DNA from: Endocalyx cinctus
Lineage: Eukaryota; Ascomycota; Sordariomycetes; Amphisphaeriales; Apiosporaceae
Assembly: GCA_001600455.1 (NCBI GenBank)
Contig: BCKC01000010.1
Coordinates: 1,308,144 to 1,372,143, forward strand
DNA length: 64,000 nt
Reading direction: 5' to 3'
Below are positions 26,698-27,689 of the stretch, piece after piece. The position numbers were made by a program, and so were the translations under genes. The notes below the pieces were generated by a model. The model ran no database searches, was not told where the DNA came from, and saw nothing but the letters and a program-made list of their open reading frames with translations. The first letter of the stretch is position 1. Each line of letters opens with the position of its first letter.

Positions 26698-27434
26698 ATG
26701 AAATTTCTCCATCTCCCATTCCTAACCCCCTTCATACTCCTCGCGACGACAACAACGACAGCCACGGCGGAAATTCTCCAGGACCTCCTCGGGAGCGTCG
26801 GTAATTTTACGCCCCCGGATATTCTCTGGACGCCGTCTCCGTCGCCCGAATGCGCGACCGTCAACGGTGGCGAGCTGCAGTGCTGCCAGGCCACGGCGGC
26901 GGGGGACTTGCCCCTCGTCGTCTTCCTCGCGGAGATTTACGGGTATCAGTTAAATCCGGATGATGTTAATGGTATTGGATGTAAGTTATTATTTATTATT
27001 TATTTATTCTTTTTTTTTTTCTGGTTAGTTGGTTATCGCGTCCTTAGCTTAAAAAAGGGGGGTGAGAGGGGGGTCAGAGAGTACTGTCCTACCCCTGTTC
27101 TGGTAATGAGCATGCCTGAACTAGGTGATGTTGCGTTTATGTAGAATGGTAGAAAGCATGACGAAAGGAAGAAAAAAAAACAGATAAAGATAAATTAACC
27201 AATGAATTAATAGGTAATACCTATAATATCAACTCCTGTCCTGCCACCAAGTTATGCTGCCAGGTGACTGCATTGGTACGTTTATTCGTTTTTTTTTTTG
27301 TCTTGTCTAATTTTCTTTGGTTAACCCCCCCCTCCATACCCTTATCTCTAACCCCCTCACTCCGCATCTCCAAATAATTATTAACTATTATTATTCAGAG
27401 TCCGCTCCTGTCTCTGTACTGTCGCGATATCTGA
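26698..27434 (+). CDS. Hydrophobin, class I-like spacing (3 exons)
   Basis: Exons 26698-26980, 27214-27275 and 27399-27434 join in frame to 126 aa. Hydrophobins are small secreted surface proteins that coat spores and hyphae. A signal peptide covers about aa 1-24 (MKFLHLPFLTPFILL core, then TTATA). The eight cysteines are C52, C62-C63, C95, C103, C109-C110 and C123, giving spacings 9, 31, 7, 5 and 12, closer to class I than class II. C95 is rebuilt across the first splice (T then GT). The last exon is only 36 nt and supplies C123 (LSPLLSLYCRDI). An alternative last exon at 27522 would run into the tRNA and lack the eighth Cys, so I rejected it. Confidence 0.8.
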
Positions 27435-27537: not shown

Positions 27538-27675
27538 TCCTCGATGGCGCAATTGGCTAGCGCGTCGTAAGTTTCACCCAACAAAAACCAAAGCTTGCTT
27601 TGTTACAAATTGACTAATAAAAATTCTCAGTGACTGTTAATCAGGAGGTTGGAAGTTCGAGCCTTCCTCGAGGAG
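27538..27675 (+). tRNA. tRNA-Asn(GTT): tRNA-Asn (GTT) with a 64-nt intron in the anticodon stem
   Basis: Exons are 27538-27566 and 27631-27675. Joined, they give a full cloverleaf: acceptor TCCTCGA with TCGAGGA, D stem GCGC with GCGC (loop AATTGGCTA), anticodon stem TCTGA with TCAGG (one T-G pair) around loop CTGTTAA, variable loop AGGTT, T stem GGAAG with CTTCC around TTCGAGC, and discriminator G. Internal promoters are present: an A box at TGGCGCAATTGGC (from 27545) and a B box at GTTCGAGCC (27655-27663), plus a T7 terminator at 27683-27689. The layout matches eukaryotic tRNA-Asn. The intron lies between nucleotides 28 and 29, whereas nuclear tRNA introns normally lie at 37/38. It lies 103 bp after the hydrophobin stop. 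It could be functional, or a tRNA copy spoiled by intron insertion. Confidence 0.85.
27567..27630 (+). other. Spliceosomal-type intron within the tRNA-Asn gene
   Basis: 64 nt starting GTAAGT, with CTAAT (YTRAY) in TTGACTAATA at 27610-27619 and ending TTCTCAG. Inside is a hairpin, CAAAGC followed by GCTTTG. Shifting the cut by one base either way breaks the anticodon stem, so the ends are fixed by pairing. Confidence 0.75.
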
Positions 27676-27682
27676 TCCTTTC

Positions 27683-27689
27683 TTTTTTT
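27683..27689 (+). terminator. RNA polymerase III terminator of the tRNA-Asn gene
   Basis: A run of seven T residues 8 nt after the discriminator base; four or more T is enough for Pol III termination in fungi. Confidence 0.7.

Follow-up and report, generated by a model that had tools for sequence, protein, structure and literature searches.

Spliceosomal-type introns at non-canonical sites in six tRNA genes of a fungal genome

Six tRNA genes from four isoacceptor families of one fungal genome are each interrupted outside position 37/38 by an insert with uniform mRNA-type splice signals, and the U6 gene of the same genome carries a similar intron. An earlier note on this DNA had proposed that a single tRNA gene is interrupted at a non-canonical site by a spliceosomal-type intron, and that proposal is borne out here. 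Judged from sequence, these are very probably functional nuclear tRNA genes that gained U2-type spliceosomal introns and whose Pol III pre-tRNAs are spliced by the spliceosome. This suggests that the mRNA splicing machinery also helps to make some of the tRNAs of this fungus.

The split tRNA-Asn gene and five further split tRNA genes

The assembly studied comprises 44,757,292 bases in 15 contigs. The window, which is the whole 64-kb stretch of DNA that was analysed, corresponds to C10:1308144-1372143. For a TPR protein encoded in the window, the best matches listed came from Hypoxylon (Xylariales), Anthostomella and Biscogniauxia at 74% identity, which points to a member of Xylariales lacking close relatives among the listed matches. 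Within the window, the exon and intron boundaries of a tRNA-Asn(GUU) gene were read in the sequence (Table 1), and the 64-nt segment GTAAGT...CTAAT...CAG described in the earlier note does lie between nucleotides 28 and 29. In full outline the intron reads GTAAGT...TGACTAAT...CTCAG, with GACTAAT inside. The A box, B box and T7 terminator-like run that had been claimed for this gene were all located, the two boxes being assigned by what we take to be their consensus.

Table 1. Coordinates of the split tRNA genes and of the parts of the tRNA-Asn gene (bare positions refer to the window, others to contigs)
Feature	Position	Strand	Basis or intron
tRNA-Asn(GUU) exon 1 (29 nt), positions 1-28	27538..27566	+	Read from sequence; 28/29 nt match intronless C7 copy
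A box TGGCGCAATTGG	27545..27556	+	Read from sequence
Spliceosomal-type intron, 64 nt, site 28/29	27567..27630	+	Excision scan, splice signals; single copy in genome
Donor GTAAGT of Asn intron	27567..27572	+	Read from sequence
Branch site ACTAAT of Asn intron, branch A = 27617	27613..27618	+	Sequence and signal comparison
Acceptor CAG of Asn intron	27628..27630	+	Read from sequence
tRNA-Asn(GUU) exon 2 (45 nt), positions 29-73	27631..27675	+	93% identity to intronless copy, differences compensatory
B box core GTTCGAGCC	27655..27663	+	Read from sequence
T7 run, Pol III terminator-like	27683..27689	+	Read from sequence
Upstream CAA	27534..27536	+	Likewise in 35/56 ordinary tRNA genes of genome
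Lys(CUU), cut after 24 (24/25)	C10:21969-21841	-	56 nt, GTCAGT...TTACTAAT...CACAG
Lys(CUU), cut after 24 (24/25)	C6:425866-425996	+	58 nt, GTTAGT...TGCTAAC...TTCAG
Arg(ACG) (L100), cut after G19 (19/20)	C12:490911-491057	+	62 nt, GTACGA...GACTAAC...CATAG
Cys(GCA), cut after 24 (24/25), tandem	C4:3545622-3545751	+	58 nt, GTAAGA...TACTAAC...ATAG
Cys(GCA), cut after 24 (24/25), tandem	C4:3545843-3545970	+	56 nt, GTAAGA...GACTAAC...ACAG

Using a custom cloverleaf scan of the 64-kb window, the split tRNA-Asn gene was found to pair at 7/7 positions in the acceptor stem, 4/4 in the D stem and 5/5 in the T arm; the one other match in the window was weak (6/7, 3/4 and 4/5). The same scanner recovers 53/56 known tRNA loci, the three missed being initiator-like Met genes. 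The split gene was missed by ARAGORN run on the window and by an Rfam search at E up to 1. When cuts of 52-75 nt were tried from starts 20-79, all five anticodon-stem pairs were obtained from one excision alone, the exact GT-to-AG cut at 28/29, and the two excisions adjoining it gave 4/5 pairs. Among the excisions tested, the assertion that this cut alone restores full pairing is thus correct.

The genome search also found two other tRNA-Asn genes, both located on C7: one lacks an intron and the other has a 16-nt intron at 37/38. Their count had been named beforehand as a check, and the existence of such copies is one half of what was said to make the window gene a disrupted pseudogene. Across the three mature forms, the six differing columns make up three pairs with both sides changed in each, and 21/21 pairs are kept throughout; in this comparison of three sequences only, 15/500 shuffles reached the same compensatory pattern. 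The base pairs 7-66 and 50-64 set the window gene apart from the other two copies. These changes, which may predate the intron, mark the split gene as a tRNA under constraint.

A genome search with the Asn intron alone returned no second copy, and an origin of this intron from an introner (a multi-copy mobile intron) was ruled out on that ground. An assembly error is unlikely, given six loci with differing introns and good splice signals.

The five further tRNA genes with GT-AG inserts outside 37/38 encode Lys(CUU) (two genes), Cys(GCA) (two) and Arg(ACG) (one). The Lys genes were brought in as partial single-piece matches to a joined query of the genome's own tRNAs (40/75 candidates scored), the Arg gene by a second tRNA query (34/34 candidates scored), and the tandem Cys genes by a pattern search for a widely spaced A box and B box. 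None of the searches that brought in these genes required GT, AG or a branch site. The A-box-to-B-box scans covered A boxes starting TAGC or TGGC only and returned 24 and 45 rows versus 35 and 24 in reversed controls, so that most rows are chance matches; tRNA-like rows were chosen from them by eye, a step that could favour visible splice signals. One locus with a widened distance from A box to B box (L104, C6:234133-234246), possibly a degenerate tRNA, was dropped as a split tRNA, being degenerate tRNA-like at best.

Thr-AGT, Ser-CGA, Ser-GCT and Asp were left out of the query that found the Arg gene; Ser-GCT was included in another query and all four in the query with 40/75 candidates scored. 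A further tRNA-family query (34/34 candidates scored) returned, among the rows inspected, only intact or canonical copies apart from the Asn and Lys genes described above. In a scan from GTAAGT to a B box (49 rows versus 38 in the reversed control), no new split tRNA appeared in the 30 loci scanned by script, and the remaining 19 rows, including the window gene and an intact Asn copy, were judged from 80 letters each. Yeast-type queries for missing isoacceptors gave six matches, every one to the Gly(GCC) part. An Rfam genome search was scored for 63/1,473 candidates, and the six genes matching the Gly(GCC) query were absent from its listing. Given that some tRNA families were only partly covered by the queries, the number of split genes is at least six.

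The inserts lie in the D stem of the Lys and Cys genes, the anticodon stem of the Asn gene and the D loop of the Arg gene. All six sit between the A box and the B box (19/20 to 28/29), and the Arg intron abuts the end of its A box. Paired stems, an A box, a B box and a T-run were found in the split genes, with the T-run beginning 3 to 52 nt downstream of each (6/6). The Arg gene also has an ordinary 12-nt intron at 37/38. For the Lys, Arg and Cys genes, GT-AG is not the sole possible cut; one or two neighbouring registers yield an identical product, and one register per gene is GT-AG. Other copies were seen for Asn (two), Lys-CUU (three) and Arg-ACG (two), and given these the split Asn, Lys and Arg genes could be dispensable.

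Splice signals and the U6 gene

The six tRNA introns are 56-64 nt long and have RCTAAY in 6/6 cases, with 13-15 nt from the branch A to the intron end. Their donors are GTAAGT, GTCAGT, GTTAGT, GTACGA and GTAAGA (twice), and their acceptors are CAG (four) and TAG (two). Each therefore has the marks of a U2-type intron, namely a GT donor, a YAG acceptor and RCTRAY at a constrained distance. According to the accessible part of PMC5832005, the fungal intron consensus is GTRWGT, RCTRAY and YAG, and in U3 introns the branch site lies on average 15 nt from the acceptor. The signals of the split tRNAs agree with this consensus.

In order to set a background rate, stretches of 56, 58, 62 and 64 nt were taken from both strands of the 64-kb window; GT, AG and CTAAY at 13-15 nt coincided in 9/511,440 stretches, a count that includes the Asn intron. 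Ordinary tRNA loci were parsed in 46/57 cases, and introns at 37/38 are common among them (28/46). In these canonical introns, some of whose boundaries are approximate, GT-AG was seen in 0/28 and CTAAY in 0/28. The inserts lie not at 37/38 but at 28/29, 24/25 and 19/20.

A coding intron of the form GTAAGT...TACTAAC...CAG is present in the polyprenyl synthase gene of the window (PF00348). An ORF-derived list of coding introns in the window proved too noisy for a consensus, and only protein-recognisable cases were used. Avoidance of TTTT was considered as a sign of Pol III transcription; TTTT is absent from the six introns, and 17% of shuffles equal this (P = 0.17), which is not significant and proves nothing.

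One U6 match was found, at C1:2248938 (48/2,990 candidates scored). It reads ...GAAACGAT/GTAAGTTTACCC...CTAAC...TTACAG/ACAGAGAAG..., where slashes mark exon boundaries that were placed with what we take to be the U6 exon sequence, and thus contains a 63-nt mRNA-type intron. This intron has the form GTAAGT...CTAAC...CAG with TCTAAC at 15 from the end, and it begins in a way similar to the Asn intron. Because U6 carries an mRNA-type intron, the spliceosome can be expected to splice a Pol III RNA in this fungus; the new part is the step from U6 to a tRNA.

A B-box-like element, AGTTCGATTC, was also observed inside the U6 intron (L041, about 1509-1525). A B-box-like element lies in the U6 intron of S. 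pombe as well.

Exon conservation and alternative explanations

The two split Lys genes are identical in 73/73 exon positions and agree in 38/62 aligned columns of their introns; the two Cys genes are identical in 72/72 exon positions and agree in 42/63 intron columns. Splice signals persist despite this divergence. The introns within each pair are related beyond shuffles, with scores (Lys, then Cys) of 8.5 versus -0.7 (sd 3.4) and 16.5 versus -0.3 (sd 3.2), which makes a single intron gain per pair probable. The 5' flanks have diverged (39/67 columns for Lys and 35/64 for Cys), and the Lys 3' flank, which contains a conserved trailer, is less diverged (45/65 columns). Exon identity in the absence of function could also result from gene conversion.

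The trailer is a CAATTCCCGRTGCCTC-hairpin before the T-run, common to 5/5 Lys(CUU) genes found (L008, L009, L027, L098, L099). A change in one arm of the hairpin is matched by a change in the other, and the acceptor 3' strand is complementary to CCCGRTG. The hairpin is kept in both split Lys genes.

Upstream CAA within 15 nt was seen in 35/56 ordinary and 4/6 split tRNA genes, against 16% of background positions; it is lacking upstream of the first split Lys gene and of the Arg gene. By energy folding, the spliced Lys and Cys sequences form a cloverleaf, in spliced Asn the D arm and the anticodon arm form and the T arm is shifted, and spliced Arg gives no cloverleaf even without both introns. 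Unspliced sequences are mostly misfolded, with unspliced Cys2 retaining part of its D arm.

The split copies might instead be insertion-disrupted tRNA pseudogenes that are never matured. For Asn, Lys-CUU and Arg-ACG the genome does have copies that are intact or carry a canonical intron, and according to the accessible part of PMC4090602 a eukaryotic tRNA gene with an insertion is probably a pseudogene when it is one of many synonymous genes. Decaying pseudogenes appear unlikely, however, because the two split Lys genes share identical exons, as do the two Cys genes, despite intron divergence and because the differences among the Asn copies are compensatory. The GT-AG ends with a branch site at fixed spacing (6/6) and the trailer hairpin of both split Lys genes speak against this explanation too, and we regard it as improbable. 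The same holds for the disrupted-pseudogene alternative that had been raised for the Asn copy, against which exon conservation speaks.

A second explanation is that Pol II transcripts contain the split tRNAs, are spliced like any mRNA or lncRNA and later release the tRNAs by cleavage. The spliceosome normally works on Pol II RNA, and a probable hydrophobin gene lies upstream of the Asn gene on the same strand. Every one of the six genes, however, comes with both promoter boxes (A and B) and its own T-run, Cys1 and Cys2 in their tandem arrangement included, and a comparable intron occurs in U6, which Pol III transcribes; we consider this explanation very improbable. The earlier suggestion of read-through from the hydrophobin gene is unsupported and also unneeded, as the Asn gene has its A box, B box, upstream CAA and own T-run.

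The hydrophobin gene itself is small and probable (window 26698-27434), with T-rich introns and an inferred stop 103 bases before tRNA-Asn. Its identification, also made in the earlier note, is plausible by Cys spacing but reaches 18.4 bits in Pfam versus a cut-off of 23.

Hardly probable at all is removal of the inserts by the tRNA splicing endonuclease, as non-canonical introns of the type seen in Cyanidioschyzon and nucleomorphs: introns in the D arm and anticodon stem are known, sometimes beside a 37/38 intron (PMC4090602, accessible part), and the central helix of Cys1 pairs 4/4 in one register, but central, outer and inner helices never occur together in any gene (with anything from 0/4 to 4/4 central pairs), the best register varies between genes, and GT, RCTAAY and AG would be left unexplained. 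In a simple custom test, no same-product register gave a bulge-helix-bulge (BHB) motif at both junctions, the closest being Cys1 (central 4/4, outer 3/5, inner 1/5).

Proposed maturation and comparison with known systems

Under the preferred reading, that of U2-type introns in functional Pol III genes, introns would have been gained between the A box and the B box of working tRNA genes. Pol III transcription, which we infer from promoter boxes and T-runs, would run from the internal promoter to the T-run, and the spliceosome would then excise the GT-AG intron in the nucleus. In the order proposed here, the tRNA body would fold and its ends would be processed after splicing, yielding a presumably functional product. 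A 37/38 intron, where present, would be removed separately by the tRNA splicing endonuclease, and the Arg transcript would need both the spliceosome and the endonuclease.

A stronger reading is that the spliceosome is obligatory for tRNA maturation, with both genes for the sole cytoplasmic Cys tRNA split, all Cys decoding dependent on splicing, and Arg in need of both machines. Two Cys genes would be a plausible full set in a genome with few tRNA genes, and no intact tRNA-Cys was seen among the candidates scored in this incomplete census. On this reading, split genes of the kind would also escape, across related fungi, those tRNA-finding programs that expect introns at 37/38. We hold this reading tentatively and lean slightly against it.

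If the preferred reading is true, tRNA genes with spliceosomal introns break the 37/38 rule, the spliceosome acts on tRNA precursors while competing with their folding, and the Arg gene is a natural double-splicing substrate. Split genes of this kind could also account for tRNA genes that seem to be lacking from annotated fungal genomes.

Canonical eukaryotic tRNA introns lie at 37/38 and are cut by the tRNA splicing endonuclease. They too interrupt nuclear tRNA genes, and one (12 nt) shares the split Arg gene, but their site differs from 19/20, 24/25 and 28/29, and GT-AG ends were seen in 0/28 here. Nuclear tRNA introns are placed exclusively at 37/38 in the accessible part of PMC3978253. Non-canonical ones are supposed to be rare in eukaryotes, with nucleomorphs and a red alga as the exceptions (PMC4090602, in part); the stem 'spliceosom' is absent from the main text of that paper. 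Cyanidioschyzon and nucleomorph introns resemble the present inserts in their D-arm and anticodon-stem sites and in sometimes being several per gene (PMC4090602, same part). Those of Cyanidioschyzon depend on BHB motifs, whereas the split genes here have none that is convincing and carry spliceosomal signals instead. Searches of open-access full text, judged from their listings and from passages of a few papers, brought up no earlier description of tRNA genes with spliceosomal introns, and novelty is claimed provisionally.

Tani and Ohshima reportedly described mRNA-type introns in fungal U6 snRNA genes in 1989 and 1991, and spliceosomal introns occur in ascomycete rRNA genes. The latter place an mRNA-type intron in a structured non-Pol II RNA, as here, but the host is rRNA and the polymerase Pol I; an 18S rRNA spliceosomal-intron case is among the references seen of PMC11782384. 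Introns in U3 snoRNA genes are frequent in Pezizomycotina, and U3 and U6 are the only small structured RNAs known as often interrupted, according to the accessible part of PMC5832005. Fungal U3 introns are similar to those of the split tRNAs in their signals (GTRWGT, RCTRAY, YAG, mean 15 nt), with U3 as host. Introns are likewise known in fungal U6 genes (PMC5832005 and PMC8917221, both in part), and these share with the split tRNAs a Pol III gene, GT-AG ends, a branch site and the length of a pre-mRNA intron, but interrupt U6 rather than a tRNA.
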